From: Arachidicoccus sp.
Lineage (GTDB): Bacteria > Bacteroidota > Bacteroidia > Chitinophagales > Chitinophagaceae
DNA: 64,000 nucleotides
Direction: 5' to 3'
Assembly: GCA_028283605.1 (NCBI GenBank)
Contig: JAPWKH010000032.1
Location: 62,001 to 126,000, forward strand
The position numbers and the translations under genes were made by a program. The first letter of the stretch is position 1, and the number at the start of each line of letters is the position of its first letter. Under the pieces are notes generated by a model. It worked only from the letters and a program-made list of their open reading frames with translations. It made no database searches and was not told the DNA's origin. Below are positions 8,624 to 62,417 of this stretch, in pieces.

Positions 8624-9518
8624 ATATGTTATTTTTATTTGCCCAAGGCCATGTTTGAATGTATTTTTCTAATTCTGTTTTTTGCATACTGCATATCTTT
8701 AGATATTCTTCCATATACCTAATTCGGTGCTCGGAACTTTCATAAAATGAATTGTCCAATCGGTCATGAGGTAAATGAAACAAACTGCCTTCTATTCTCT
8801 TTACTTTATATCCCAAATTCTTCATACGTTTTTGTCGTTCAATATCTTCTGGTCCCCAACTTGCAAAGAATTCATTCTCCATCCCGGCATTGATATATTT
8901 TTCCCGATGAATAAGCACACTTCCTCCATAAGAACGCTTTACCCCAGTCAGAAATTTATTTTCATTCAATAAGAATAAATCCGAATCTAAAATTTTCCCG
9001 AACATTTCTTTGGATAAACTGTCCACGCTCGTGAAGGAACCATCATAAGGATAAACCATATCATATTTATTTTCTCTTAATACATTAACAGCTTGCAGGA
9101 TTTGTTGTACGGGAACGATTACATCCGTATCCTGAATAATAATGAATTTTGTTGTGGCTTTTTTAATGAGCAGGTTATTAATTTTTGTGTGCTCAAACAG
9201 TGGATTTGAATCATATAAAAAATTATATGTGCAATTTATTGGCAGTAATAAAATATCTACTTTTTGTTCTTTATCGTCTTCAATAATAAGAGTATTGGTC
9301 GTAAAATATTTATCTAAATAATTTGTCAGATAGTATATGTTTTGCAGTCTGCTTTCAGAATCTATTCGGACGGGAATTAAAAAAGTTATGTCCGTTAATT
9401 CAATTCTTTTTTTATCAAAATTTTTTTTATAAGATTCGATTAATTGTACAAGCGGAAAGCTGCAACTGTCCTTTCGAATCTCTTGTAATTGTGTGTCATG
9501 ATAAGGGGAATATTTCAT
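8610..9518 (-). CDS. Glycosyltransferase, GT2/GT7C-like second domain
   Basis: Residues carry a GT-A fold pattern: FLIPVRIDSESR, an acidic IIIQDTDVIVPV motif that would bind nucleotide-sugar and metal, and a galactosyltransferase-like C-terminal block GGSVLIHREKYINAGMENE, FASWGPEDIERQKRMKNLGY and LFHLPHDR. The start at 9518 is backed by an AAAGGGG ribosome site and an ATGA overlap with the upstream glycosyltransferase. However, the 20 residues that precede this start in frame (HYSGNIDKENKQYFRKGNY) look like the C-terminus of that upstream enzyme, so the two may have been one protein (see 9515-10378). It probably sugars the peptide, as seen in glycosylated RiPPs. Confidence 0.75.
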   Translation of the reverse strand: MKYSPYHDTQLQEIRKDSCSFPLVQLIESYKKNFDKKRIELTDITFLIPVRIDSESRLQNIYYLTNYLDKYFTTNTLIIEDDKEQKVDILLLPINCTYNFLYDSNPLFEHTKINNLLIKKATTKFIIIQDTDVIVPVQQILQAVNVLRENKYDMVYPYDGSFTSVDSLSKEMFGKILDSDLFLLNENKFLTGVKRSYGGSVLIHREKYINAGMENEFFASWGPEDIERQKRMKNLGYKVKRIEGSLFHLPHDRLDNSFYESSEHRIRYMEEYLKICSMQKTELEKYIQTWPWANKNNIYASS

Positions 9519-14071: not shown

Positions 14072-14337
14072 TCAACTAAGCTGGTTTTGCGTACAGCCAC
14101 AGCAATAATACACGTGCGTGCCATAGCTTGCCCACTGTTCAGCTAGATTGTCAGCTGCACTGTGTGCTGCGCTTTCACTAGAGTATGAACAATTGCTATA
14201 GCTCCAATCCTTTGTATGGGCGCAACAGCCACCACCCCCACTAGGTGCAGCCATTCCTCCTACTATATTTTCATTTGTTCTCTTGAGAGAACTGTGCCGC
14301 CTGCAAAATCGTGCAGGCTAAATTTTTTTGTTTGCAT
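14072..14337 (-). CDS. RiPP precursor peptide P1 (leader frameshifted)
   Basis: Leader MQTKKFSLHDFAGG then TVLSREQMK, followed by a frame break: the run at 14268-14271 has four A (minus strand) where five would give KNIVGG as in P2 and P3. Downstream, the core MAAPSGGGGCCAHTKDWSYS continues with many Ser, Cys and Tyr and ends in GTHVYYCCGCTQNQLS. A start at the internal Met (14254) would make a leaderless core. The core has seven Cys. It is followed by TlpA2. If the run length is real, the peptide is off; if variable, it could be switched. Confidence 0.75.
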
Positions 14338-14603: not shown

Positions 14604-16121
14604 CTACTTATTTATTAATTGCGTTAATTTCAATTCAAAATTATCGTCTTGCGGATGAGCAAAATCCTCATCAACGATATTTCCTTTTTTATCAATCACA
14701 ATATATCTCGGAATAGAATTAATGTTGAAAAATTTTGCTATGTGCGAATTGAAGGAACTGTCAATAATAAAATTGTTTGGTTTATCATAATTCCCTAATT
14801 GCTTAGTTTTATTAATCCATTGTTGCATATTTGGCTTTACATCCATGCTAATACTGATAAATTTTATAGATGCGTTTTTATATCTGTCTTCATATTTTTT
14901 CAAGTGCGGATAATCGCTCACGCATGGTACACACCAGCTTGCCCAAAAATCTATAAAAAAGTATTTATAGTTTGCAGTATCACGAAATAGTTCTTGTTTA
15001 AATGTTGTTGTACTATTATCAAACTTGTACACTGTTTCATCCGCAGTCATCGAAATATTTCGAGGTTCATGATTAGGCCTGTTGTCTTCTGCGAAAAGAA
15101 AAATATATTTTCCGTTATCAAACGACTGTAAATCCTGTTTTGCTTTATTGTAATTCGTATATGTGCTTAATAATATTTTCGAAAGTTTTGTAAGAGAATC
15201 AATTAGTGAGGTACGAATTGGGTTGTTTTGTAATTTCAAATGAACTGAATCTAATAAATTAAATTGATTAATAAATTCATTACCCAAATTCCAAAACGCA
15301 AATTTTGTATATGCCATTGAGTTTTGAGTGTTTGTATCTACTTTTAGAAAACATTCCCAAATATTTGAGCTTTTGATGCTGCTTTTAGACGCTGTCCTAA
15401 TAATGTTCTCATAGATTATTCCATTGACAAATTGAGAATTGATAATTGATATTATAGGAATATCTTTTTTCAATTCATTGGAGATACTATCTGAAATAGA
15501 TTTTTGAATTTTGATTGTATCACTCAAAAATTTAGAGAGTTGAATATCTTTGATTAGCAAGTTGAAAACATACAACATTTTTCTTTGCTTATCACTAATA
15601 TTGAGAGAAGTTATTTCTTTATGATTGCGCAAATACTGGCTGCTTACATATTCCAATTGCTTCCTGGTCGCAGATGAGTTGATGTTTAGTCCATTTGTTT
15701 TCGAGTTGTATATATTATCAGGGATAGAGATTAAACTGTCTATGTATTTTGGGTAGCCATTTGAAAATGATATTTTGAAATTTTCATCAAGAAACACACT
15801 ATCTCCGGGAAGAAGGAGTAAATTTTCCTGAAATAATTTGGCTCCACTTTTAGAAATTATATATCGTCCCCAAAAAAGGTGTATAGCAGAATCTTCCATA
15901 AATGGGATTTCAATTTTTACAATCGTATCTTTATTAGTTGAGTTCTTGGCTGAAATAGTCTTGTTTAATGCGTTATTTAATATTATTGAACTATTTGGTT
16001 TTAATGCGATATATACAACAGCATTAGAAAACTGATGATTCAAATCACTCCTTGTTAACTTTACCGATTGCCCGTTACAACTACAAAAAATAAGAAAAAA
16101 GAAAATAAATAAATATCTCAT
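14604..16121 (-). CDS. TlpA-like thioredoxin (TlpA3)
   Basis: 505 residues with a lipoprotein signal (YLFIFFFLIFCSCNG), a beta-rich DUF4369-like N-terminal domain, a helical middle (about 130-340) and a thioredoxin domain with SWCVPC (Cys397 and Cys400), FISISMD and cis-proline IPRYIV. It follows precursor P2 by about 70 bp with a stem-loop between, and a fragment of a second exporter gene follows it. Same inferred role as TlpA2: extracytoplasmic thiol chemistry on the peptide product. Confidence 0.85.
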   Translation of the reverse strand: MRYLFIFFFLIFCSCNGQSVKLTRSDLNHQFSNAVVYIALKPNSSIILNNALNKTISAKNSTNKDTIVKIEIPFMEDSAIHLFWGRYIISKSGAKLFQENLLLLPGDSVFLDENFKISFSNGYPKYIDSLISIPDNIYNSKTNGLNINSSATRKQLEYVSSQYLRNHKEITSLNISDKQRKMLYVFNLLIKDIQLSKFLSDTIKIQKSISDSISNELKKDIPIISIINSQFVNGIIYENIIRTASKSSIKSSNIWECFLKVDTNTQNSMAYTKFAFWNLGNEFINQFNLLDSVHLKLQNNPIRTSLIDSLTKLSKILLSTYTNYNKAKQDLQSFDNGKYIFLFAEDNRPNHEPRNISMTADETVYKFDNSTTTFKQELFRDTANYKYFFIDFWASWCVPCVSDYPHLKKYEDRYKNASIKFISISMDVKPNMQQWINKTKQLGNYDKPNNFIIDSSFNSHIAKFFNINSIPRYIVIDKKGNIVDEDFAHPQDDNFELKLTQLINK

Positions 16122-16141
16122 AAAAACTTTTTTTGTTAAAT

Positions 16142-16176
16142 GTGTCCAGGTTAAGATTATTTCTCAGTCTGGACAC
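16142..16176 (-). terminator. Stem-loop between precursor P2 and TlpA3
   Basis: Perfect 8-bp stem GTGTCCAG with CTGGACAC around a 19-nt loop, between the P2 stop and the TlpA3 start. Not followed by a long U run, so more likely an mRNA-stabilising or attenuating hairpin than a full terminator. Confidence 0.55.
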
Positions 16177-16193
16177 TAAAAATCTAATTAACC

Positions 16194-16506
16194 CTAATTT
16201 GCAACAGGAGTGCCTGCGCAAGCTGGACAGGTAAATGTTGTTCTACCACCATTTTGCGACTGTATGTTGTCTGCAGTTTGAGAAATACCATTGGGATTAC
16301 TCAATGTTTCAACACTGCTACAAGTCCAAGAAGAGTCATAAGTAACGCTGTAAGTGGTGGTTACTTGAAGTATTCGTATTTGTGACAGAACAACTAATGC
16401 CACTTCCGCCGCTTGGTGCCATACCGCCTTTTACATTTTTCATTTCTTCTCTTGAGAGTTGTGTACCGCCTGCAAAATCGTGCAGGCTGAATTTTTTTGT
16501 TTGCAT
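16194..16506 (-). CDS. RiPP precursor peptide P2 (core frameshifted)
   Basis: Leader MQTKKFSLHDFAGG, TQLSREEMKNVKGG is in frame and continues MAPSGGSGISCSVTNTNTS, then hits a stop soon after. One base fewer near 16355-16375 joins it to the open frame VTTTYSVTYDSSWTCSSVET, which continues through GRTTFTCPACAGTPVAN to the stop at 16194. The joined core has four Cys and is very rich in Ser/Thr, as expected of a dehydratase or disulfide substrate. Leader is nearly identical to P1 and P3. Followed by TlpA3. Confidence 0.75.
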
Positions 16507-16537
16507 TTTAATGAAATTTAATTTATAAAAATTAAAT

Positions 16538-16629
16538 CTATTCTTTTACCATTTTGGCAGGTATCGCCTCAAATATTGCGACAAGTGTGGCAATGTTTGA
16601 AAATGTATTTATTGACTTTTATTTTTCAT
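16538..16629 (-). other. Short ORF-like block upstream of P2, copy A
   Basis: A strong Shine-Dalgarno (AAGGAGG on the minus strand) precedes an ATG at 16629. The frame that ends at 16538 encodes FSNIATLVAIFEAIPAK then MVKE, matching copy B upstream of P3 (18756-18847). In this copy a TAA and a frame change separate it from the ATG. May be a decayed leader peptide or small protein. Confidence 0.4.
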
Positions 16630-16690
16630 TACCTCCTTTTTTTAAGTTTTAAACGGAAAGAAAATATATTTCCGGTATGTTGAATATTAT
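16538..16690. repeat. Direct duplication, copy A (with 18756-18900)
   Basis: About 130 bp is nearly identical to 18756-18900, including GGCAGGTATCGCCTCAAATA and the block TTTTAAACGGAAAGAAAATAT. The duplicated unit sits upstream of P2 and P3 respectively and ends at, or runs into, the next gene's 3' end. Marks the unit boundary of the tandem precursor-TlpA cassette. Confidence 0.85.
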
Positions 16691-16793
16691 ATACAAAAAG
16701 TTGTTTGTATTCTATAACTACACCTCTCGTTCTGAACCCTATCTTCTCGGCTGTTCTACTGATGCCGAGTAATATAAGGAATGCTTGTTGCGG
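16684..16793 (-). pseudogene. Remnant of a second C39-ABC exporter (residues about 47-80)
   Basis: The minus frame directly after the TlpA4 stop encodes LILLGISRTAEKIGFRTRG then VVIEYKQLFVYNIQ, matching residues about 47-75 of the C39 domain of the exporter at 5355-7579 (SMLGISDTAERVGFRTRG). There is no start and the sequence dissolves after about 35 codons. Together with 14478-14585 it shows that a second exporter copy was broken up between cassettes. Confidence 0.8.
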
Positions 16794-18230
16794 TTATAAA
16801 TTCTTTTCAATCAACTCTTGCAATGCTTTATCGCTTGGGTGCGGCGCATCGGCAGAAATTACTTTGCCGTCTTTGCCGATGAGTATATATCGCGGAATTG
16901 TATTTATTTTAAATTTTTTCGCGAATGAAGATTGGTCGGGCGAACCGACAAGATAATTATAGCGACTTTTTTCCAATTTCTCTTCCTGCACGGCTCGTTT
17001 CCAATCATCAATGTTTTTGTCGATGGATAGATACATAAAAACAATACTGCTATTTGCAAAATGATTTTCTAATTCTCTTTCCTTTGGTATATTTGCACGA
17101 CAAGGCGCACACCAGCTTGCCCAACAATCAATGTAAATAAGCTTTCCTATATTAGCTTTTAATATGGAAGATATATTTTGCGTATATAAATTTAAATCGA
17201 GCACCGAATCTCTATTTGCTTGAGTTAATTTTTCATTTTGAAAAACCATATTATTGATGTAATCAAGGTATTCTTTCTTCTTGCAATCAGTCAGAAATTT
17301 CCGAATCATTGAAGATGACTTATCCATCCCTATTTTTGATATCTGCGAATTAATAATCGATAATAATACTGCATCTTTTGTAATACTATCTTTTAGCGTT
17401 TTATTAGTCAAATCATACATATTTTCAAAGCTGATTTTATTATAATCATATTCATTTGCATTGTGCAATGTTTGATAATACATATATGAATAAGCAAGAC
17501 TGGTAAAATATTCATCGCTATTATCGGTATAATGAGATGAGTTAAAGAGGGAATCTAAAGAATCTTGCACTTGCGTGGTTATATTGGTTTTTGCGTTTAA
17601 TGCAGAACCGATTTGAGAATTAAGCATCGTGCATTTTATGAAGTTATTTAAATCCTTTTCAAAGCCGCGTGATATTGTCTTGTTTTGTTTATAAGTGTTG
17701 ATAAAATCGGAAATATCATGCGTGTATTTGTCGAATATTTCGCTACTATATTGTTTCGTTTTATTGTTAAATGCTTCATTTATAAGGCTGCCGAACGATT
17801 CTTTAAGTGTAAGATTTGCCTGCCGCATCAGGTCCAATTCATTATCTCGAATCGAATCCTTTGTAATTGTTTTGAATATAAAATTGCCTGAAGAATCTTC
17901 TCGTATTTTCAGTCTGTCATTCGGATAAACAACATAAAAATTTTGATTTTTGTCTGGCTGAAAAATAAATTGCTTTCTGTAAGATTCAATAACAATCGAA
18001 TCATTGGGATTCATGAAAATCTGTTGCAGCCCTTGCGGGCAATCGTTGTAATAGATGCTCTCACGCTTTAGAAGCGAACTGAACAAATAAATTGAATCCT
18101 TTTTTTTAACATCAACTAAATCTTTTTCATAATGAACTTGGGAGGCACATGAATAATTGTCTGAAAAGATTATAAAACCCAATATTAAAATCAAAAAATA
18201 TGTACTTACAGATTTTTTTTTATTCCTCAT
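16794..18230 (-). CDS. TlpA-like thioredoxin (TlpA4)
   Basis: 478 residues: N-terminal signal or membrane helix (VSTYFLILILGFIIFSDNY), DUF4369-like region with FYVVYPNDRLKI, a helical middle and a thioredoxin domain with SWCAPC (Cys374 and Cys377), MYLSIDKN and IPRYILIG. The C-terminus (SDKALQELIEKNL) is identical to TlpA2. It follows precursor P3. It is the first of the thioredoxin genes in the transcription order after the VKOR fusion, which could re-oxidise or reduce it across the membrane. Confidence 0.85.
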   Translation of the reverse strand: MRNKKKSVSTYFLILILGFIIFSDNYSCASQVHYEKDLVDVKKKDSIYLFSSLLKRESIYYNDCPQGLQQIFMNPNDSIVIESYRKQFIFQPDKNQNFYVVYPNDRLKIREDSSGNFIFKTITKDSIRDNELDLMRQANLTLKESFGSLINEAFNNKTKQYSSEIFDKYTHDISDFINTYKQNKTISRGFEKDLNNFIKCTMLNSQIGSALNAKTNITTQVQDSLDSLFNSSHYTDNSDEYFTSLAYSYMYYQTLHNANEYDYNKISFENMYDLTNKTLKDSITKDAVLLSIINSQISKIGMDKSSSMIRKFLTDCKKKEYLDYINNMVFQNEKLTQANRDSVLDLNLYTQNISSILKANIGKLIYIDCWASWCAPCRANIPKERELENHFANSSIVFMYLSIDKNIDDWKRAVQEEKLEKSRYNYLVGSPDQSSFAKKFKINTIPRYILIGKDGKVISADAPHPSDKALQELIEKNL

Positions 18231-18385
18231 GTTATATGTATTTAAATAATAATATTAAGTCTGCTCTTTCTTCGTTAACTGAGATATTTTTCGTTTCGCC
18301 ATCGATTGGTAATTTTGGTAGCAGATACAACAACATAAAAACTTTTAATATGACTTTATAACAATAATTGAAATGAATATTAAAG

Positions 18386-18417
18386 AGGGGCAAAAACGAT
18401 TATTAATTTTTACCCCT
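18386..18417 (-). terminator. Stem-loop between precursor P3 and TlpA4
   Basis: AGGGG with CCCCT extended by AAAAA/TTTTT around an A/T-rich loop, some 24 bp after the P3 stop. The distance to TlpA4 (about 155 bp) is longer than in the other cassettes. Confidence 0.5.
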
Positions 18418-18440
18418 TCAATTTAACTTGTGATGTCGAG

Positions 18441-18723
18441 CTAAGAAGCTGTCGAACAACCACTATGGTCAGCCCAAGTAGCAGTACAACAACTATCACA
18501 GCACCAATGGGTGTATCCACCAGTAGATGCGTCATTAGAGGATAGTCCTGTCGTTATAAATCCTGTTCCAGAAGGTTGACCGGGAATCGTTGTTAAGCCT
18601 TGGCAAGTACCACCACCACTACCACCAGAAGGAGCCACACCTCCCAACACATTTTTCATCTCTTCTCTTGAGAGTTCTCGTCCGCCTGCGAAGTCGTGCA
18701 GGCTAAATTTTTTTTGTTTGCAT
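18441..18723 (-). CDS. RiPP precursor peptide P3 (leader frameshifted at poly-A)
   Basis: From the ATG at 18723 the poly-A tract (18708-18715) has eight A, where P1 and P2 have seven; this gives MQTKKI-stop. With seven A the leader reads MQTKKFSLHDFAGGRELSR then EEMKNVLGG, and the core VAPSGGSGGGTCQGLTTIPG runs on to a Cys-rich end (GYTHWCCDSCCTATW, ADHSGCSTAS). A start at the internal ATG (18659) would leave only MKNVLGG as leader. The tract sits right after the fifth codon, a classic place for slippage switching. Six Cys in the core. Confidence 0.75.
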
Positions 18724-18755
18724 TTTAATGAAATTTAATTTGTAAAAAATGAAAT

Positions 18756-18847
18756 TTATTCTTTTACCACTTTGGCAGGTATCGCCTCAAATATTGCGAC
18801 AAGCGTGGCAATGTTTGAAAAGGTATTTATTGACTTTAATTTTTCAT
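18756..18847 (-). other. Short ORF-like block upstream of P3, copy B
   Basis: AAGGAGG then ATG at 18847. The frame ending at 18756 would read MKKLKSINTFSNIATLVAIF, EAIPAKVVKE if the A5 run after the ATG had six A; as given it stops at codon 4. Hydrophobic centre, about 30 residues. Might be a small leader or membrane peptide translated ahead of P3. Same sequence as copy A upstream of P2. Confidence 0.4.
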
Positions 18848-18900
18848 TACCTCCTTTTTCTTTTTTTAAGTTTTAAACGGAAAGAAAATATTTTAAATCG
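18756..18900. repeat. Direct duplication, copy B (with 16538-16690)
   Basis: Second copy of the about 130-bp block upstream of a precursor gene; overlaps the 3' end of the VKOR-thioredoxin gene, so the block may have originated from this junction and been duplicated with the cassette. Confidence 0.8.
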
Positions 18901-20495
18901 GCTACCGTGTATATTTCTGGAAGCTGATAACCATTCACAAAAAATGTAGGTGTAAAAGCTATTTCAGTTTTGCTGCACCATTCAGCCATCGCTTTTAAAG
19001 CCTCCCTTTGTCCCTCCAAAGGAGGGATATTTGGGTATTTAGCAGCAAAAACTTCATAGTCTTTTTTATCTGCCAAATACCAATCGTCCAATGCTTGTTT
19101 TGTTTGGATCTCATTTTCTTTTTCTGCAATTGCCAATAAATGTTTTGTAGGCTCGGCATCAGAAGTAAAAATTATCTGCACTTGCACATCAGGATTATTC
19201 TCCAATAATTCTTCTATCGTAGGATGTGCTTTAGCACAAGGCCCACAATAAGGATTGCAAACTTTTAGCAATTTATATTTGGCATCTGGATTGCCAATGA
19301 ATATACCTAAACCATCAGTAGGTTCTGTAATGGCTTTCTGTTTGGCAAGCAAAGCATCAAATATTTGTGGATTGTGTTTTAAGCGTTGCAGTTCATTTTT
19401 GTTTTGCTTGCTTTCTTTTGCTTTACGAAGCGCAGGCAGTAAAAGGCTTACTACTAGAAAAGGAATCACGAATGAAAAGGAGATTGCAAGCAAGGTGGAA
19501 AATTGAACAGAAGCTATATCAATCGCTGTGTGAAAGCCGCCGAAAAATGCCGCAATAAATTGTACAGCCAAAACAGCTTGCACAGCCAAACACATCGGAC
19601 ACCATTGTTTGGCGATCCTTGCCTGATAATAGATAGAAAAAGCAATGTATGGCAATGCGAATACATTCAGCCAAGAAAGGATAAACAAAACAGGCAAATT
19701 ATAAATGCCCGAAACAAGCAAACTGATGAGGCTTCCTGCAAAATAAGTAAAGCCGATAGCGCTCCAACTAATACCGAATATTTTTGAAGCATCGGAACTA
19801 AGAATGGCATTGCAATTGGTTTTCTTTCCACCTGAACATATTTGTTGTAATGCTGGGTTATATTTATCTACTTCGTACCAAAGCAACAGCGTACCTACGA
19901 GTGTTCCGGAAAATGTAAGAAGCGTATATGTGACTGCTGCAATAGAGGCTGTACCTGAATGAATTAATGTAAGCAAGCAGGCGACTAATACGAAAACAGG
20001 AATAATAACTGCTGTCAAAATTTTGGTAAGTAAAATTCGTTTTTCTTCTTTTAGATGAGTTGAAAAATCTCTTTCACCTGAATTGTTGGTTGCTTCGGCT
20101 AACAATACAAATCCCGTAAAAAGGCTTGAAAATTCATTAAATGAATTCTGAACTTTTTCACCACTTACAGGATGGATATAATTAACTGTCATATCATTTA
20201 ATTCTGAAATAACAGTAAAATATTTTTCATTATTAATGTTTACTTGAACTAACATAGGAAAAAAGAATTCCTGTAATTGTGCCGCTGTTGTTTTAAATGA
20301 TATATTTTCAATGCCACAATTTTTTAAAACATCGCTTACGGCTAACAGGCTTGGATAATCGGGATGCGCTTCAAATTGTTTTTGAAGGTTTGTTCTAGTT
20401 ACCTTTATATTCAGCAGCTTACACAGCTGCAGGGTAACAGCTTCGCAGTTTTCCAACGGAGTGAATAACTTCTGAAATAATTGTTTTAATTTCAT
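18873..20495 (-). CDS. C39-like / vitamin K epoxide reductase / thioredoxin fusion protein
   Basis: 540 residues. N-terminal C39-like fold without a catalytic Cys at the usual place (residues 1-130, HPDYPSLLAVSDVLKNCGI), then about five to six membrane helices forming a VKOR domain with the paired Cys of CSGGKKTNCNAILSS and the active QWCPMC motif, then a thioredoxin/DsbA-like domain with CNPYCGPCAKAHP and cis-proline FTPTFFVNG. VKOR domains make disulfides using quinone and pass them to the thioredoxin partner; here it could oxidise Cys in the exported peptides, with the TlpA proteins as reductants or isomerases. It is the first gene of the minus-strand RiPP operon, and a palindrome resembling the LuxR-site candidates lies about 60 bp upstream. 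Confidence 0.9.
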   Translation of the reverse strand: MKLKQLFQKLFTPLENCEAVTLQLCKLLNIKVTRTNLQKQFEAHPDYPSLLAVSDVLKNCGIENISFKTTAAQLQEFFFPMLVQVNINNEKYFTVISELNDMTVNYIHPVSGEKVQNSFNEFSSLFTGFVLLAEATNNSGERDFSTHLKEEKRILLTKILTAVIIPVFVLVACLLTLIHSGTASIAAVTYTLLTFSGTLVGTLLLWYEVDKYNPALQQICSGGKKTNCNAILSSDASKIFGISWSAIGFTYFAGSLISLLVSGIYNLPVLFILSWLNVFALPYIAFSIYYQARIAKQWCPMCLAVQAVLAVQFIAAFFGGFHTAIDIASVQFSTLLAISFSFVIPFLVVSLLLPALRKAKESKQNKNELQRLKHNPQIFDALLAKQKAITEPTDGLGIFIGNPDAKYKLLKVCNPYCGPCAKAHPTIEELLENNPDVQVQIIFTSDAEPTKHLLAIAEKENEIQTKQALDDWYLADKKDYEVFAAKYPNIPPLEGQREALKAMAEWCSKTEIAFTPTFFVNGYQLPEIYTVADLKYFLSV

Positions 20496-20550
20496 TTTTT
20501 ATTCCTTTAATCGATAATAAAAATATTTTTCATGTGGTTGCAATAAGGGT

Positions 20551-20576
20551 ATAGTTTACCAAAAGGGTAAATACTA
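20551..20576. promoter_or_regulatory. Palindrome A, candidate regulator site before the RiPP operon
   Basis: AGTTTACC-AAAA-GGGTAAAT, followed by ACTA. It shares the core TA-x-CC-N4-GG-x-TA arrangement and the 4-nt spacer with sites B and C, but the outer bases differ. It lies 56-80 bp upstream of the VKOR-fusion start (minus strand). Confidence 0.4.
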
Positions 20577-20675
20577 ATTTGGAGAAATACTTTTATGTTA
20601 ATTGCACCATAATTATTTATTACCAACTTACGCCGATTACCTGTTTCTTTTATGCAGAAAGGCAAAAAATTATAT

Positions 20676-20700
20676 AAAAACTATACTTTTGGATAGTATT
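20676..20700. promoter_or_regulatory. Palindrome B, lux-box-like site before thiF-type gene
   Basis: AAAAACTATACTTTTGGATA then GTATT. It matches site C (22331-22355) at 22 of 25 positions. It ends about 20 bp before the start of the ThiF-like gene, near where a promoter would be. Confidence 0.6.
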
Positions 20701-20722
20701 ATATAAAAAAATGAATTAGTTG

Positions 20723-21478
20723 GTGAATCATTACAAAAGAAATCGTATATACATCACTGAATCCGAACAGATAAAATTGAAAGATTATAAGGTCTTAATT
20801 GCCGGCTCCGGCATTGGTAGCGTGATTGCTGAATGTGCGCTACGGCTGGGCTTTGAGAATATCACAATCGTTGATGGGGATATAGTTGAACTAACCAACT
20901 TAAATCGACAGAATTATGTTTACAAGGACATTGGCAAGACAAAAACAGAGAGCATTGCCATGCGATTAAGAAGCATTAACCCAAATGCGAACATTAAAGT
21001 TCATGACCAATTCATAACTACCGATAATGTCTCATCTTTTATTGAGCAACATGATGTAGCTGTCAATGCGCTTGACTTTACTTCTGAAGTTCCGTTTACG
21101 TTTGATGAAATCTGCCAATCCAAGAATATACCGGTATTGCATCCTTACAATATCGGCTGGGTCGGATTAGTATTCGTTGTTATGCCCGATGGAAAAAATC
21201 TTTCTTTTTTGTCAGACGATTATTATCAGTTTGAAAAAGCTGTTGTCGGCTTTGTTTTACAAAAACTTGCCGATAGCCCTTCACATACAAAAGAATGGAT
21301 TAGCAATGTTCTGCTTGAATATGGAAATGAAAACGGGAAATTACCACCTCCTCAACTCTCTGTTGGTTCTTATTTATTAGCGGGCGGGTGCGCTCATTTA
21401 CTTTACAAATTGGCGCTTAATTTATCTGTAAGGAAGTTGCCTGAATTTTATCTCTATGGCTTAGAAGACACAATATAA
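20723..21478 (+). CDS. ThiF/MoeB/HesA-family E1-like adenylyltransferase
   Basis: About 251 residues with the Rossmann glycine motif AGSGIGSVIAECALR (residues about 28-42) and the ATP/adenylate motif DGDIVELTNLNRQNYV, diagnostic of ThiF-fold E1-like enzymes. No CxxC zinc pairs are seen. Such enzymes adenylate a C-terminal carboxylate; in MccB-like cases they modify peptides. The start is GTG at 20723 (TTG at 20720 is equally possible; no ATG fits). It stands divergent to the RiPP operon and faces the LuxR gene. I infer a role in signal or peptide tailoring, but substrate is unknown. Confidence 0.8.
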   Translation: MNHYKRNRIYITESEQIKLKDYKVLIAGSGIGSVIAECALRLGFENITIVDGDIVELTNLNRQNYVYKDIGKTKTESIAMRLRSINPNANIKVHDQFITTDNVSSFIEQHDVAVNALDFTSEVPFTFDEICQSKNIPVLHPYNIGWVGLVFVVMPDGKNLSFLSDDYYQFEKAVVGFVLQKLADSPSHTKEWISNVLLEYGNENGKLPPPQLSVGSYLLAGGCAHLLYKLALNLSVRKLPEFYLYGLEDTI

Positions 21479-21526
21479 ACTTATAAAACATCTTGTATAA
21501 CTAAATATTAAATCACAAAACTATAA

Positions 21527-22282
21527 TTATATTAATTTATAGTTTGCGGCGCAAGCAATCGCTTCTCCGATATTTTTCACACGTAATTTTTCAAAGATTT
21601 TAATACGATGAAACTTAATTGTGGTAAGAGACAAATACATTTTTTCCGCAATATCTTTCATTGTCAATCCTTGACTACTTAACAGTAATACTTCTTTTTC
21701 AATCGATGTAAGCTTAACGCCGGGTTGAAGTTTCCAAAGTTTTTTAACGGTATCATATTGAAACACTCTATTGCTGTTCAATTTCTGAATAATGATGTTT
21801 CCGGGCGTATCATTCGACGAAGTTGAAACGATGCATAATGCCAACCATATATTTGATGATTTGTCCAAAATATAAGGAACAAGTTTATGGTTAATCAACA
21901 TTAAATGATTATTCGGTTGCTTTATCCGAAAATCATAAGATATAATATAATCCAGACGTTCTTCAATAGGTAATTCATTGTAAAACGCAAAGCCTGCTTG
22001 GTTAATCTCCAATAGTAATTCTAAGTCCTCTTTGGGTACATAATTATAATAAAAAAGATACCCCATTTTCTGTACGTGAGAAGCCGTGTTGCCACATAAG
22101 AAAAGCGGATTGTCCGACACGTAAACGAAACTCTGCTTATAATAATCGATTATATAAACGCTTTGGTAAGTAGCATGAGATATTACTCTTACGGCATCAA
22201 TATATGGCTGAACAGCAAAATATTCTTCGGCATTCGGCTTATTCGTTAATTTCATCGGTTTGAAAAAATCATCTAAAGCCAT
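21527..22282 (-). CDS. PAS-LuxR type transcriptional regulator
   Basis: 251 residues: an N-terminal PAS-like sensor region (about 35-165, with VYIIDYYKQSFVYVSDNPLF) and a C-terminal LuxR/GerE helix-turn-helix (about 190-251: LTSIEKEVLLLSSQGLTMKD then TTIKFHRIKIFEKLRVKNI). It converges on the ThiF-like gene and diverges from the acyltransferase, with a large palindrome between the two starts. I infer that it reads a small acyl signal and binds palindromes A-C to control the signalling block and the RiPP operon. Confidence 0.88.
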   Translation of the reverse strand: MALDDFFKPMKLTNKPNAEEYFAVQPYIDAVRVISHATYQSVYIIDYYKQSFVYVSDNPLFLCGNTASHVQKMGYLFYYNYVPKEDLELLLEINQAGFAFYNELPIEERLDYIISYDFRIKQPNNHLMLINHKLVPYILDKSSNIWLALCIVSTSSNDTPGNIIIQKLNSNRVFQYDTVKKLWKLQPGVKLTSIEKEVLLLSSQGLTMKDIAEKMYLSLTTIKFHRIKIFEKLRVKNIGEAIACAANYKLI

Positions 22283-22320
22283 TATACAACATTTAATAGT
22301 ACAAAAATCACTTTCTTAAT

Positions 22321-22366
22321 TTTTATAGTCAAAAACTATCCATTTGGATAGTTTTTGACTATAAAA
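22321..22366. promoter_or_regulatory. Palindrome C, 46-bp perfect inverted repeat (lux-box-like)
   Basis: Arms 22321-22341 and 22346-22366 are perfectly complementary (21 bp) around ATTT; the centre AAAAACTATCCATTTGGATA repeats site B. It lies in the divergent intergenic region between the LuxR gene (39 bp away) and the acyltransferase start. Could serve both promoters; the length also allows an RNA hairpin. Confidence 0.65.
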
Positions 22367-22428
22367 TTCTTAAACAAATGTAAAAAAATATTTCAGCATT
22401 TTAAATTCCGTCATAAAAATTATATAAT

Positions 22429-23044
22429 ATGACAAAGATTACAAAACTAAAAAAAACAACTCTACGAATTAGCAAAATTCATCGTTCGGGAAAATCACAC
22501 ACACCACATTTCAGAACCTTACAGAGAAACTGACTTTTTAGATGAGATAGTGTCGCTCTATGAAGAAGATTTATCTGTCTTTGAAAACTCTGTATTCTAT
22601 GTTGCTAAAGACAATTCAGAAATTGTCGGTTCCGTAAAAGTTACTTTATGGGATAGAAAAACAATTCTGCCTCTTGAAAAATTGTTCGGCTTAAATGCCA
22701 ATAACGTTTTTCAAAACAATAGCTTGAATAACATCTGGCACGTTGGTCGCTTCGCTATTAGCAAGAGTAACGGGATGTTGCTATTAAAGAAATTACTTGT
22801 TATGGCAATTTCAACCATATGCAGCGAAACAAATAGTTTGATGATTGCCGAATGCGATAAAAAATTTGTCAAGGTGTTAAACCTATTAGGAATAAAAACA
22901 GAAGTACTTGCACCTTCTGTTTTTTATTTAGGGTCAGAAACGCTACCGATTTTCTCCATTTATGAATGGTTGTACAGTTTTTTAAACTTAGCTATTCCCG
23001 CATTGCCTTTAGCAGATACAATAAGTTTATTGCAAACAGTATAG
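22429..23044 (+). CDS. FeeM/LuxI-like N-acyl amino acid synthase (GNAT fold), frameshift in poly-A
   Basis: From an ATG at 22429 the protein starts MTKITKLKK, then an A8 tract (22449-22456) shifts the frame; with A7 it continues QLYELAKFIVRENHTHHISE and into the long frame (GTG at 22550 onward). The body has the hallmarks of FeeM-type acyltransferases: VAKDNSEIVGSVKVTLWD, the HVGRFAIS motif, LLKKLLVMAIS and AECDKKFVKVLNLLGI ... YLGSETLPI. The restored length is about 205 residues. Relatives join fatty acyl groups from acyl-ACP to amino acids, giving hydrophobic signals. Next to a LuxR gene and a lux-box-like palindrome it looks like a signal synthase. Confidence 0.7.
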
Positions 23045-23206
23045 TCAGTTTATAAATTTCAATTTTCATGATTACCTAACCATTATCCATATTAATCCCT
23101 GTAGAATATTTAACCATGAAGAATCATTTGTTTTAGATTTCAAATATTTTTCGTAGAGCCAGTATATTTTAATTAAAGAATCGCTTTGTATATTACAGAT
23201 TTAGTC

Positions 23207-23530
23207 TTTCAAAAAAGTAGTTGATAATAGCGGATGAAATTTGGAAAGCGAATCCAATAATTCTCGTTGTTTTTTTGATGAAATAGAAACTGAATTAAAA
23301 ATATTGTTTTTAATTTCCTGTTTGTCTAAAAATGGCAATGTGTTTGTATTATAATACTTACTAAAAACAGTATATCGGATATTTTATTGAATAACCGATT
23401 AACATGAAATTCATTATTTCTGTAATTGTTGCTTAGCTGCAGAATAAGTTAAATCCCCTATTATCTTATTTTTTTCAACAATAACTTTATCGTCGGGATA
23501 CGATATATAAAAATTATCAGGCTATCGTGT
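23207..23530 (-). pseudogene. Decayed TlpA/DUF4369-type gene fragment
   Basis: The minus strand carries overlapping coding-like pieces in different frames: DNFYISYPDDKVIVEKNKII, GDLTYSAAKQQLQK, then NNEFHVNRLFNKISDILF, then SKYYNTNTLPFLDKQEIK and KKQRELLDSLSKFHPLLS to a stop at 23207. FYISYPDDKVIVE resembles FYVVYPNDRLKIRE of TlpA4. At least two frame breaks, no start, no thioredoxin domain. A further relic of the thioredoxin array, now beyond the signalling block. Confidence 0.55.
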
Positions 23531-23670
23531 GATGCAAATAAAGATGTATCAGCAGAAAAGCTGATAGAATCTTAGGGGATTTGCATGAAAGGGCAATTAT
23601 GCATAGAAAAAACGAAAAAAATAAAATCTTTGCATATATATACGCATATTTCTACAACAAATAATTATTA

Positions 23671-23702
23671 AAGCAAGGATTACAAAGCTGTAAGCCTTGC
23701 TT
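23671..23702. terminator. Strong stem-loop in gene-poor stretch
   Basis: AAGCAAGG ... CCTTGCTT with an inner TTAC/GTAA helix closing on AAAGCT. No clear U run, so terminator or structured RNA remnant. The rest of 23045-23880 holds only the decayed gene at 23207-23530 and A/T-rich DNA. Confidence 0.5.
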
Positions 23703-23892
23703 GCTATTCAATATTAACAAACTGTAGTTGTAATACGAAAAAACAATTTCTCCGGACGCCGGTGTATCTTCTTATAACCTCAATTTCTCTACTTCCCTGA
23801 CTTTGTCTGTCTTAGAATTTATTGTACATTTGGGAACCATTCTTTAATCCTCATAACTGCCTCCACTTTTTTAACTTTTATAATTGGGAAAT

Positions 23893-26802
23893 ATGAGGAA
23901 ATTTTTACTTTTTTCAATACTCTTATTTTGTGTTTTGCTAAGCAATGGCCAGCAAACATATTACTGGTCTGTTTCTTCCGGCAATTTTGATAATGCAAAC
24001 TCATGGACACCGTCACGCTCCTCACCCGCAGCCAATGATATATTGATATTTGACGGATCATTTGTTTCGAATGCAATTGTTACCGACTTTAATCCACGAG
24101 AAAGCATAGGTCAGTTATCAATACAAAGCAACTGTGCGGTAACTTTTTCCGGAGCTAGTAATGTGACCGGCGCAGGTACGGTTACTAGAGCCGGCAATAT
24201 AGTAACGGGCAGTGGAACTTCCTTTACTACCGATTTCGTGCCTGGTGATATTATCAATATAGGAGGAATACCGGACGAAGTTGCTTCTGTAATTTCTGCT
24301 ACAAGTTTAACCACTACCGGCACAGGAGATATTAGTGTAGGTACAACATACACAACAAATGCACGCCTCAATATTACAGGAGGTTCCACAGCATTGTATA
24401 TACAGGCAGGATGTTCATTACAACTCACGGCAACTTCCCCTATTGCAATTTATATCAGCAGTGGGACCGGAGTAATTTTAGGTAATTTAATTTTTTCAGG
24501 TGAGGCACACAGGTTGAATTCTGCTGATGCTAATGCAATTACTTTCAATTCAGGAAGTACTTTTACTCAATCTACAGGATTTACAGGTTACGCATTCACA
24601 AGTACAGGAGTAGCAAATGCTGTTACATTTACTTCAGGATCAACTTGTTTAGTAAATGCAGGATCCCCTCCATTTGGATTACTTAATCCGTCATCTAAAG
24701 TTGTTTTCAACAGTGGAAGTATCTACAAGCAAACTACAGGAACACCCGATTTTTCCGGTCGTATCTATTCAGATGTAGAGTTGGCAAACTCTTCAACTGA
24801 TACCGGCGCTTATGCAGTTTCTATTGATAATTTTACTATTTCCGGTAATTCTACCATAAATTGGAATATGACAAGTACCCCGGGACATGCCATTAAAGGA
24901 AATATTAACGTAGGTGAGAACTGTACATTTAATATAAACGGCGCAGGAACACTTAATTTAAACGGATCTTCTTTGCAAACTATATCCGGTAAAGGTACTA
25001 TAACAATTGGCTCAGGCGCTACTGTTATCAACGGAAACACAAATGGTATTAATATTGCGCCGGGCACATCTTTGAGCAGTATTGCCGGTACACTTAACCT
25101 TAATGGCCGACCTCTTACCTTAAAAAGCGATATAACAGGAACTGCTTCTGTCGGTAAAATTACGGGGTCTGTAACAAATGGCAATAAGGTAACTGTAGAA
25201 AATTATATAGCTGCTCGTCCCGTTAAAACATATGCTATGGTTGGCTTTAGTTCGTTTGCCTCTTCTATTTATAATAGTTGGCAGGAAGCCGGCGCGTCCA
25301 CTTCTAATTATGGTACACAAATATCAGGGACTTACACAGGCGATGGTTTTGATTTTACAGACACTGCACCTATGACAAGCATTTATAGTTATGATGATGC
25401 AGATTATCCGCCCGGCAGCAAATGGCAAGGTTTATTCTATACAAATAATACTTTTCCTATGCCCGACGGACAAGGTTATTTACTTTTGATAAGAGGCGAC
25501 AGAAGCGTGGGTTCCGATGATGGACCTTCGACAGCAACCACATTACGCTCAACCGGAACATTAGCAATAGGAACGATTGGCGGCATATACTTATCCGGAG
25601 GTACGAATATATTTAATTTAGTTGCCAATCCATATCCTTGCCCAATTAAATGGAGTACGCTTACAAAACAGAATCTTAATGGATCATTTACCGTGTTTGA
25701 TCCAAGCCTTCAAACGTTTGCAACTTCTAACGGAACTCTTGTTTCGCCGAGCGTAAGTCAGCAGACTGCTAATAAAATACAAACAGGTCAGGCGTTTCTT
25801 GTGCAAAATGATGCAAGTAATAATACACCTGATTTAGAAATGAATGAAACTGATAAAATAATTGGCAACACTAACGACATCACTTCCTCAACGCAAGAGT
25901 TAAATGTAAATTTTTATAGAGCGGACAATAGTTTCGCCGACGGCGCCGTTGCCGTTTTTGGGGACAATAATATTAATGCATTAAAATTTCCGAATTTGAA
26001 TGAAAGTATTTCTTTTCTTGAGAATGGACAAAATTATAGCATCGATGTAAAGAACATACCTACAGGCGGCGATACTTTAAACATTGATATGAAACAAATG
26101 AAATTAAATCAAACATATACAATTGCTATTGATGCTTCCAATTTTAATTCGGGAAATGCACAAATTGTAAAACTGATAGATAATGTAGCCGGTACACAAC
26201 AAGTATTAGACCTCACTACGCAGAACACATACAGCTTTACTACAACTGCTGCAGACGAATCCGGCAGACTGCAGATTGCATTTAGCAATAATATTGCCAC
26301 TCCGATTATCTTAAAAGATTTTTCAGGCAGTATTAATAATGATATTGCCACGCTAAATTGGCAAACGGAGACAGAAGAAAATTTTAACCGGTTTGAAATA
26401 GAGAAAAGCGCAGATGCAAAAGCTTATTCGCTTATTGCAAGCGTTACACCTAAAGGGAACAACAATAATTATAGTTATAATACTTCTCAGGCAGAAAAAA
26501 TCGCATTTTACAGATTAAAGATGATAGATAATGACAAAAATCTCAGTTATAGCAAAATAGTTCGCTTGTCTCAAAACAACAGCGAAATAATTATATATCC
26601 AAACCCGGCAACAAACGAAATACATATGAACGCGAATGAAGCTTCTCTATTTAGCATATACAATGCTTCCGGTGTTTTGGTTAAGACTGTGAAACTAAAC
26701 GAAGGTTTCAATACTATAAATATTCAATCTTTAAGCAAAGGAGCTTATTTCGGTAAATCAAACAAAGGAAATTATTTTATTATCAAATTTACGAAAGAAT
26801 AG
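23893..26802 (+). CDS. Large secreted surface protein with T9SS type A C-terminal sorting domain
   Basis: About 969 residues. ATG at 23893 chosen over the upstream TTG because it gives a clean signal peptide (MRKFLLFSILLFCVLLSNGQ). The N-terminal half is a repetitive beta-helix-like region rich in Gly, Ser, Thr and Asn (about 20-420); then a beta-sandwich region, a FNRFEIEKSADAKAYSLIA motif region, and a C-terminal T9SS sorting domain beginning IIIYPNPATNEI and ending YFIIKFTKE. Type IX cargo is moved across the outer membrane and anchored or released. The last 20 residues contain a small KGAYFGKSNKGNYF duplication. Likely adhesin or surface-layer component; exact role unknown. Confidence 0.88.
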   Translation: MRKFLLFSILLFCVLLSNGQQTYYWSVSSGNFDNANSWTPSRSSPAANDILIFDGSFVSNAIVTDFNPRESIGQLSIQSNCAVTFSGASNVTGAGTVTRAGNIVTGSGTSFTTDFVPGDIINIGGIPDEVASVISATSLTTTGTGDISVGTTYTTNARLNITGGSTALYIQAGCSLQLTATSPIAIYISSGTGVILGNLIFSGEAHRLNSADANAITFNSGSTFTQSTGFTGYAFTSTGVANAVTFTSGSTCLVNAGSPPFGLLNPSSKVVFNSGSIYKQTTGTPDFSGRIYSDVELANSSTDTGAYAVSIDNFTISGNSTINWNMTSTPGHAIKGNINVGENCTFNINGAGTLNLNGSSLQTISGKGTITIGSGATVINGNTNGINIAPGTSLSSIAGTLNLNGRPLTLKSDITGTASVGKITGSVTNGNKVTVENYIAARPVKTYAMVGFSSFASSIYNSWQEAGASTSNYGTQISGTYTGDGFDFTDTAPMTSIYSYDDADYPPGSKWQGLFYTNNTFPMPDGQGYLLLIRGDRSVGSDDGPSTATTLRSTGTLAIGTIGGIYLSGGTNIFNLVANPYPCPIKWSTLTKQNLNGSFTVFDPSLQTFATSNGTLVSPSVSQQTANKIQTGQAFLVQNDASNNTPDLEMNETDKIIGNTNDITSSTQELNVNFYRADNSFADGAVAVFGDNNINALKFPNLNESISFLENGQNYSIDVKNIPTGGDTLNIDMKQMKLNQTYTIAIDASNFNSGNAQIVKLIDNVAGTQQVLDLTTQNTYSFTTTAADESGRLQIAFSNNIATPIILKDFSGSINNDIATLNWQTETEENFNRFEIEKSADAKAYSLIASVTPKGNNNNYSYNTSQAEKIAFYRLKMIDNDKNLSYSKIVRLSQNNSEIIIYPNPATNEIHMNANEASLFSIYNASGVLVKTVKLNEGFNTINIQSLSKGAYFGKSNKGNYFIIKFTKE

Positions 26803-60857: not shown

Positions 60858-62417
60858 TTACCTCTCCTGTTTTAAAACGGCTTCGGGATGGCCTTCCAAT
60901 CCTTTTCTGACCAGATCGGCAATGAATTTTGCAAACGGGCCTATGTTCTGTCCGACACTGGCCTGTTCAAGGGTCTTCATGTACTGTGCCCGTTTTTCCA
61001 CGGGTATTACCGTCCATGGATAACCACCGGATGCCAGCATGGCGTTCATCAGGAAACGGGCCATCCTCCCGTTTCCGTCCATATAGGGATGGATGAAAAC
61101 AAAGATAAAATGTCCGAGCACGGCCCTTACACCGGCATGGGGTTCCCGTTGCAGCAGTTCCATCAGTACGGGCATCGCATCCCGGAGCGCATCGGTATTC
61201 AGTGGTACGTGCTGGGAATTGCCGATATATACCTGGTGGGTACGGTAACCGGCCAGGTCAGAGGCTTTCAGCAGTCCTACGGCTACGCTTGGGGCAAACA
61301 GGCGGCGGTACCATGCCCCGTGGTCTGCATCCACCACTTTACCGGCATTTTCCCTGTCAAGTATCTTTTTCACACTTTCCGATACCGACTGGAATGCCTC
61401 CCAGTAACCCCTTGCCGCCATGGCGTCCCTGGCGTTGCGGTCCTCCACTTTGTTTTTCCCGTCCCATTTCCCTGACCGTACCCGCTCTATAAGTTCCGGG
61501 GTGACCTGGTACCGCTCTATGGACAGCGAATGGTAGGCATCGGTGGCATATATGGCTTCCACCTTACTCATGTAGTCTTTTCTGTTTTGGGGAATGCCAG
61601 GCGCTTGTGGAAAGACTTCGACAATGCTTTTCCTCATAGCCTCCCACATCAGCCGGATACGGATGCAGTAAGGAGAACTTTCATGCGGGGCCAGCGTCAG
61701 TGACATTTTCTCCCCAAAGGGATCTGTTTCCCGCACGTCGTAGCCCGCATCCCGCATGGTAGCCAATAGGGTATCCGCGATCCGGTTTTTCCCTACGTTC
61801 CTGAATGCCCCCGCCAACCTTCCGGCTACCGTGCTCTGCCCTCCGTCAAGCAAGGGTGCCAGTATTTCAGATGCGTCCTTGATCTGCAATAGTGCGGTGC
61901 GGATATCCACGGTGTCCCGGAGATAGGCATTGGGGGATGCCTGTATCAATGCAGGCACCAGGCCATAAAGATGAATGCCCCGGTACTCGGTCCTGTTTTC
62001 AGAAGGCGGCAATTCCGCTTTTATCAAAAAAAGTGAAGTATGAAAAGGCAACTCCACGATATAATTGGTATTTGATTTTGTGCGAACGATCATCTGGCCA
62101 GGAATAGACCTGTTGCCGGCATGCAGCAGCAGGGACTGCTCAGGGGATACAATCCAATCACTGCCAAAGCGGATACGAAGGTACTGCGCGCAAAAATCCC
62201 AGTATGATGCGTACCATCCGGTACTATCCCCGTCTTTTTGTTCCGGCGATGAAAGTAAAAACCATCCTTTAATGACTTCCTTCAGAAACCCGTTTTTCAA
62301 TAGTCTTTCCCGATGCGTCCGGGACAGGTCCCCCGCTCGGATAGCGACTTTCCCCGCATCCTGTAATCTCTTTAGTTCATCCAGCGAAACAGCCAGATTC
62401 TCTGCTATTGTTGCCAA
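60858..62417 (-). CDS. Fic-domain protein with N-terminal AbiEi-like/winged-helix antitoxin domain
   Basis: 519 residues. N-terminal part (about 1-180) has LAVSLDELKRLQDAGKVAIR, LSRTHRERLLKNGFLKEVIK and WIVSPEQSLLLHAGNRSIPG, in the style of AbiEi-type antitoxin or transcription-regulator domains. The C-terminal part is a Fic domain with HPYMDGNGRMARFLMNAML (HxFx-D/E-GNGR, Phe to Tyr), so the AMP-transfer catalytic loop is intact. A switch segment between them is likely. Such proteins modify target proteins with AMP and regulate toxicity themselves or through the fused domain. Stands alone, convergent with HU, downstream of a repeat array. Confidence 0.88.
   Translation of the reverse strand: MATIAENLAVSLDELKRLQDAGKVAIRAGDLSRTHRERLLKNGFLKEVIKGWFLLSSPEQKDGDSTGWYASYWDFCAQYLRIRFGSDWIVSPEQSLLLHAGNRSIPGQMIVRTKSNTNYIVELPFHTSLFLIKAELPPSENRTEYRGIHLYGLVPALIQASPNAYLRDTVDIRTALLQIKDASEILAPLLDGGQSTVAGRLAGAFRNVGKNRIADTLLATMRDAGYDVRETDPFGEKMSLTLAPHESSPYCIRIRLMWEAMRKSIVEVFPQAPGIPQNRKDYMSKVEAIYATDAYHSLSIERYQVTPELIERVRSGKWDGKNKVEDRNARDAMAARGYWEAFQSVSESVKKILDRENAGKVVDADHGAWYRRLFAPSVAVGLLKASDLAGYRTHQVYIGNSQHVPLNTDALRDAMPVLMELLQREPHAGVRAVLGHFIFVFIHPYMDGNGRMARFLMNAMLASGGYPWTVIPVEKRAQYMKTLEQASVGQNIGPFAKFIADLVRKGLEGHPEAVLKQER

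Follow-up and report, generated by a model that had tools for sequence, protein, structure and literature searches.

Does a member of the Bacteroidota carry a quorum-type signalling circuit of its own, and does this circuit govern the peptide genes beside it? The locus that raises these questions lies on contig JAPWKH010000032.1 of Arachidicoccus sp. (assembly GCA_028283605.1), whose genome comprises 3.59 Mb. The window analysed is the 64,000-nucleotide (nt) stretch from positions 62,001 to 126,000 of this contig, and coordinates are counted from its first letter. Genes for a ThiF-like enzyme, a LuxR-like regulator and a FeeM-like acyltransferase (termed thiF, luxR and feeM) sit between a C39-VKOR fusion gene (18873-20495, minus strand) and a large gene at 23884. 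We computed, across this locus and its relatives, the conservation of the genes, the folds, the boxes and their spacing, the frame offset and purifying selection. As the sequence-only reading had proposed, a Bacteroidota genome appears to carry a circuit of LuxI/FeeM-like and LuxR-like proteins with palindromic operators of its own; sequence comparison supports this well through the conserved gene pair, the conserved boxes and, in many relatives, a fixed distance between box and promoter-like element. As a whole, the locus is probably an autoregulated quorum-type signalling module, with a recoded feeM in the clade to which the window belongs.

The three genes and their palindromic boxes

The genes and boxes of the putative circuit are as follows.
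20676-20700, no strand: palindrome B, a box; its core (20680-20697) ends 22 nt (TTG start) or 25 nt (GTG start) 5′ of thiF
20720-21478, plus strand: thiF-like gene for an E1/MoeB-fold adenylyltransferase of 252 amino acids, starting at TTG 20720 or GTG 20723 (Pfam)
21527-22282, minus strand: luxR-like gene for a protein of 251 amino acids with a PAS-like sensor domain and a GerE helix-turn-helix (Pfam GerE and structure model)
22321-22366, no strand: palindrome C, a box between the divergent luxR and feeM; core 22335-22352
22451-23044, plus strand: main frame of the feeM-like acyltransferase, 197 amino acids, LuxI/FeeM-like fold; TAA in frame just 5′, first ATG, GTG or TTG at codon 34

The thiF and luxR genes named from the letters alone are real. 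The ThiF protein matched PF00899 in Pfam (1e-36), and residues G29, G31, G33, D52, D54, R63, Q64, K75 and D119, which presumably have a role in adenylation, were invariant in 15 of 15 aligned sequences. Assignment to the PRTRC ThiF family (TIGR03736) was rejected at 23.4 bits against an NCBIfam cut-off of 144.75. The GerE domain of the regulator matched PF00196 (4.6e-13), and the PAS-GerE architecture was recognised by fold: the model (predicted local distance difference test, pLDDT, 91) matched 3CLO from Bacteroides, its closest relative by both sequence and fold, and then VqmA. For the acyltransferase (model pLDDT 88), the first fold matches were BjaI, a synthase of N-acyl-homoserine lactone (AHL) (E about 1e-6, template modelling score, TM, 0.59 by query), and FeeM 2G0B, whose chains matched with TM 0.58-0.71 (0.58-0.65 by query length) and E 1.5e-6 to 1.3e-5. 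BjaI, TofI, LasI and EsaI were all among its first 20 fold matches. In sequence searches at E ≤ 1, FeeM was its only Pfam match, NCBIfam returned nothing and the autoinducer-synthase family was not matched; a sequence search for relatives of solved structure gave no significant match.

As had been claimed, 22 of 25 positions are identical in palindromes B and C. Palindrome C consists of two perfectly inverted 22-nt arms around a 2-nt spacer. A whole-genome scan found the core ACTATNCNNNNGNATAGT at exactly two sites, B and C. Allowing one mismatch added six genome sites, all outside the locus, and at up to two mismatches the genome held no excess (130 sites forward versus 225 for the motif read backwards, the control being the commoner). 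The exact core is therefore confined to the locus, though the loosened motif shows no excess. An Rfam scan of 16000-24500 returned nothing.

Acyltransferase relatives were present in 8 of 294 family genomes (8 of 394 at a stricter cut-off), 4 of 396 order genomes and 12 of 395 phylum genomes; each count includes the home genome, and a few matches are weak. After removal of L021 and L022, duplicates of L026 and L029, 24 acyltransferase loci were compared, with L031, L058 and L061, weak relatives without LuxR, counted among them and L064, found later, outside the set. LuxR was encoded at 19 loci, ThiF at 16 (one of these proteins being only 27% identical) and both at 14.

The 17 genomes scanned held 26 exact sites of the box pattern ACTAYNCNNNNGNRTAGT, and feeM lay within 2.5 kb of 17 of these sites; the reversed pattern gave 28 sites over the same genomes. 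A box regulon across these genomes was thus not seen, the one unusual feature of the sites being their clustering at the locus. The nine exact sites away from the locus adjoin an HxlR-like gene (our reading) in G673 and G886, fall inside or next to unrelated genes in G206, G279 (two sites), G865 and G760, or, in G116, stand 19 and 23 kb from feeM. In G116 (L081 10141), the box 19 kb from feeM is exact and lies 232 nt 5′ of a gene for a secreted protein of 2131 amino acids, SpvB/RHS-like in our reading.

To counter the widening of the pattern, a leave-one-locus-out matrix was run over 401,686 nt with a threshold of 12. Of its 47 hits, 21 fell before feeM (17 loci), 8 before thiF (8 loci), 15 behind feeM (8 loci) and 3 at other places. 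A backward reading of these sequences, which served as the control in place of regions chosen for holding exact sites, gave 5. A box above threshold lay upstream of feeM in 16 of the 19 LuxR-carrying loci, the exceptions being L023, L024 and L029, so the palindrome does recur in homologous loci; a thiF box was present at 8 of the 16 ThiF-carrying loci. Boxes were paired 38 nt apart in several loci. At the two Bacteroidales loci without a box, L023 and L024, two inverted copies of a TTGGGC...GCCCAA palindrome were seen by eye 5′ of feeM, perhaps the operator of their own LuxR. At L059, feeM looks truncated or decayed around 8845-9042, with thiF, luxR and both boxes retained; this locus may be a non-producing listener.

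Spacing to a promoter was examined for 47 boxes taken with the full matrix at a threshold of 9, a set related to the leave-one-out set. The motif TAnnTTTG, whose background is 0.00064 per nt, started 30-31 nt from the box centre in 14 of the 47, 67-68 nt in 12 and 57 nt in 1, and was absent within 75 nt in 20. In many relatives, we read this as a proximal box at about -42, spaced as for an activator from a putative -7 element of the Bacteroidota type, and a second box further 5′. A position of about -42 is usual for activators.

Several findings weigh against the circuit as read here. The window acyltransferase matched Pfam FeeM (PF21926) with E 3.4e-4 and 20.9 bits, below the gathering cut-off of 27, so that its earlier description as FeeM/LuxI-like holds by fold and, by sequence, through a sub-threshold match; ordinary GNAT acetyltransferases also matched its model (E 1e-5 to 1e-4). 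The Pfam matches of LuxR at E ≤ 1 included no autoinducer-binding domain, a PAS-like fold standing in its place, and its model aligned with the listed VqmA entries at TM 0.31-0.39 and a root-mean-square deviation of about 15-17, so that the domain order is alike and the whole shape is not. Exact boxes were found in 12 of the 17 genomes and were missing from 5. Both pattern and matrix were designed, and the pattern widened, after some of these loci had been seen. In the window itself, TAnnTTTG did not occur within 75 nt of B or C (these are two of the 20 boxes above), and a search downstream of feeM gave no box.

The frame offset at the start of feeM

Two further features lie between palindrome C and the main frame of feeM.
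22429-22448, plus strand: ATG and six codons (MTKITKL) in another frame, 5′ of the feeM main frame
22449-22456, plus strand: A8 run forming the frame junction; across seven loci its length is A6 to A8

A start of the acyltransferase gene at 22550 had to be corrected, as the frame is open and conserved from 22451 and the GTG at 22550 is codon 34. An A-tract precedes the acyltransferase frame in the window and six relatives. A TAA stands in frame directly before the conserved frame in six of these seven loci (all but L029), and an out-of-frame ATG lies 22 or 28 nt 5′ of the main frame, at the same offset, in six of the seven. Main-frame ATG, GTG and TTG are absent before codon 34 in the window and from the 36 codons checked in L025 and L030; in L030, a main-frame ATG 21 nt upstream runs straight into the TAA. 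A main-frame start shared by all seven was rejected, codon 7 being TTG in L026, L027 and L028, TTA in the window, L025 and L030, and CTG in L029. Fourteen other loci (L023, L024, L048 to L057, L060 and L064) have an in-frame upstream ATG. In a tree of 20 acyltransferases, from which the truncated L030 was left out, six frame-offset sequences grouped with a full-length feeM (support 81). Genus searches for further frame-offset relatives gave none beyond those known in 4 + 4 genomes, and a conserved RNA structure at the junction was sought without consensus pairs being found; programmed frameshifting does not always require such a stimulatory structure. Sequencing error is thought unlikely, as the junction occurs in seven genomes of six genera, one of these genomes being assembled as a single contig.

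We prefer to read the offset as recoding, by transcriptional slippage or ribosomal frameshifting, so that feeM would be translated from the upstream ATG and enter the main frame at the A-tract. The occurrence, mechanism and any regulatory use of such recoding are inferred. Comparing the window with L025 over codons 1-33, we counted 14.5 synonymous and 4.5 non-synonymous changes in the main frame, against 2 synonymous and 17 or 12 non-synonymous changes in each of the two alternative frames. The main-frame stretch is under purifying selection, which suggests recoding. A precedent is reported from insect endosymbionts, where slippage at long poly(A) runs corrects reading frames (PMC5009743).

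Alternatively, the A-tract may be a site of phase variation, the gene may be decaying, or translation may begin at an internal or unusual codon; this is a serious possibility that falls somewhat short of an even chance. It gains from TTG at codon 4 or 7 in four of the seven loci, from partial decay at L030 and L028, and from a peptide precursor in the window (18441-18723) likewise broken in frame at an A8 run, a classic kind of slippage site. Set against it are the same offset in six of seven loci despite identities down to about 50%, and tract substitutions (A8, A7C, A6CG) that change the length and keep the offset. The window, L025 and L030 lack a start for at least 33 codons, the window and L025 show the synonymous excess just given, and feeM is better conserved between these two than the other two genes are (85, 75 and 61%).

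The relatives also supply points that count against recoding. In L029, the ATG 23 nt 5′ has the opposite offset, and no stop interrupts the main frame back to a TTG at -162. The TTG at codon 7 of L026, L027 and L028 (with an ATG at codon 9 of L026) and at codon 4 of L029 offers candidate starts. Over the first 24 codons, the main frame had the lowest ratio of non-synonymous to synonymous substitution rates (dN/dS) in 12 of 15 pairs, not in all, with synonymous sites saturated. L030 has a truncated feeM, and luxR of L028 is a remnant. As only the window, L025 and L030 (its gene truncated) lack a start codon, we strongly infer obligatory recoding for these three and regard it as a mere option in the others.

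The neighbouring peptide operon and the signalling model

A RiPP-like (ribosomally synthesised and post-translationally modified peptide) operon adjoins the circuit, with these features nearest to it.
18873-20495, minus strand: C39 peptidase-VKOR-thioredoxin fusion, first gene of the operon (Pfam)
20551-20576, no strand: palindrome A, an imperfect inverted repeat 5′ of the C39-VKOR gene, outside the box class

From the sequence alone, palindrome A had been taken as kin of B and C. As a LuxR box it was rejected, the best matrix score in 60 positions around it being -10.8, a value equalled or beaten at 166 positions in 24 kb. Exact TAnnTTTG was not found within about 100 nt on either side, nor was a box in the 7.5 kb around the home-genome paralogue of the operon, and the kinship is not upheld. 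Direct control of the operon by the circuit through A and B is therefore unlikely. What speaks for it is that B lies in the divergent intergenic region common to thiF and the operon, through which control is possible, and that boxes precede peptide gene runs in some relatives; yet A is no box, and B, about 185 nt from the first start codon of the operon, is explained by thiF. It matches the thiF box of seven other loci, none of which has an adjoining C39-VKOR operon. The C39-VKOR gene type occurred in 19 of 117 family genomes, and only the home genome and G040 among them were acyltransferase-positive, with the gene on other contigs than the acyltransferase in G040; at the other 23 acyltransferase loci the fusion was not found. 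Since A is no box, B is the thiF box and this type of operon occurs mostly without the circuit, the wiring proposed for the window is unsupported, and the C39-VKOR operon is probably independent of the circuit.

In eight of the 24 loci, boxes stand before the gene run that follows feeM, and in some of them this run is a peptide or natural-product cluster. The boxes are followed by a TonB-type gene and class I lanthipeptide genes in L055, by an UpxY antiterminator and a nonribosomal peptide synthetase (NRPS) in L054, and by MauE and a DUF6520-like peptide (below the Pfam cut-off) in L025, whose other flank resembles a mobile element in our reading. L049 carries NHLP precursors, the N-terminal half of LanM, an NHLP exporter and an adaptor, with boxes at feeM only. 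At L050, the flank encodes short secreted peptides beside TonB-type and ABC genes; L053 and L060 were judged alike from their similarity to L050. The earlier proposal that a signal controls peptide production thus stands as a general reading, through the eight loci with boxes, and not for the RiPP operon of the window. Searches for spread on plasmids or viruses gave no match in PLSDB and none confirmed in IMG/VR. That a transferable Bacteroidota module drives lanthipeptide, NHLP and NRPS clusters, and that one clade, probably Chitinophagaceae, needs obligatory recoding at the A-tract, the efficiency of which would set the signal output, is a tentative reading, somewhat below an even chance.

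In the proposed model, the acyltransferase of FeeM/LuxI fold would make an acylated small signal, for which the N-acyl amino acid of the sequence-only reading is a candidate, and the ThiF/E1-like enzyme would probably activate the carboxyl group of the acyl product, a possible purpose being cyclisation; several loci lack thiF, so this step is optional. The PAS-GerE LuxR would sense the product and, by binding ACTAYNC-N4-GNRTAGT boxes at the promoters of feeM and thiF and, in certain relatives, boxes before the natural-product gene run, would give positive feedback. Binding, activation, signal chemistry and the role of ThiF are predictions. It is improbable that the locus serves no intercellular signalling, with an acyl amino acid or lipid of intracellular or structural use as the FeeM product and a PAS-LuxR that senses redox or another cue and co-regulates the operon: the receptor is indeed PAS-like, without the LuxR autoinducer domain, and a planctomycete N-acyl amino acid synthase has been proposed to make stieleriacines, with a biofilm effect on another species largely independent of its LuxR (PMC7293339), but the synthase itself carries a box, forming a positive loop, in 16 of 19 LuxR loci, and VqmA, a fold match of the regulator, is a PAS-GerE quorum receptor.

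The module is real and conserved, and is a variant of the LuxI/LuxR kind rather than a separate kind. Like the AHL circuits of Proteobacteria, it places a GNAT-like synthase of LuxI-like fold beside a GerE regulator, with a palindromic box of about 18-20 bp 5′ of the synthase and links to natural-product clusters. It differs in its PAS-like sensor, a synthase nearer to FeeM by Pfam, a ThiF/E1-like third gene, another box, the -7 type element of Bacteroidota and the synthase frame offset in one clade. With FeeM N-acyl amino acid synthases, the acyltransferase shares the 2G0B fold and the weak Pfam match, whereas its identity to the solved structure is about 10%, it falls below the Pfam cut-off, and it is coupled to LuxR and boxes. 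The VqmA receptor of 3,5-dimethylpyrazin-2-ol (DPO) has the same PAS and GerE architecture with poor overall superposition, and its ligand, a pyrazinone, is not known to be the product of a neighbouring acyl synthase. Biosynthetic clusters linked to luxR are described for AHL quorum sensing (PMC5872303).

Within the Bacteroidota, signal-making enzymes of the LuxI/FeeM kind are little known. A Dyadobacter LuxR solo has been proposed to act with a neighbouring signal-making dialkylresorcinol (dar) cluster (PMC9606717); that circuit differs in using the dialkylresorcinol/flexirubin pathway, and the cited passages of its description name no LuxI or FeeM synthase. A metagenome study, in the part cited here, describes Bacteroidetes LuxR genes without a synthase of a known family and leaves room for an unknown one (PMC6000730). 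A literature search of open PubMed Central (PMC) text found, among the matches listed, no description of the module. The module supplies a specific synthase, receptor, operator and promoter geometry, and with them a possible handle to switch on silent natural-product clusters; a recoding-gated signal synthase, if true, would be an unusual way of setting a quorum-sensing threshold.

Precursor genes of the peptide operon

Downstream of the C39-VKOR gene, between 10503 and 18230 on the minus strand, genes for three secreted proteins matching Pfam thioredoxin and a fourth that is weakly similar alternate with precursor genes. The first precursor is out of frame.
18441-18723, minus strand: double-glycine (GG) leader precursor; an A8 tract separates its ATG from the body, which is in another frame

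The sister GG-leader precursor at 16336-16506 is in frame and has A7. The offset at 18441-18723 could reflect slippage, phase variation or decay. In a third GG-leader precursor (14072-14337, minus strand), leader and body lie in different frames with stops between them, and this copy is probably decayed. The home genome has a second C39-VKOR gene, at G000:C3 (L092), and behind it a single precursor whose leader and body share a frame.

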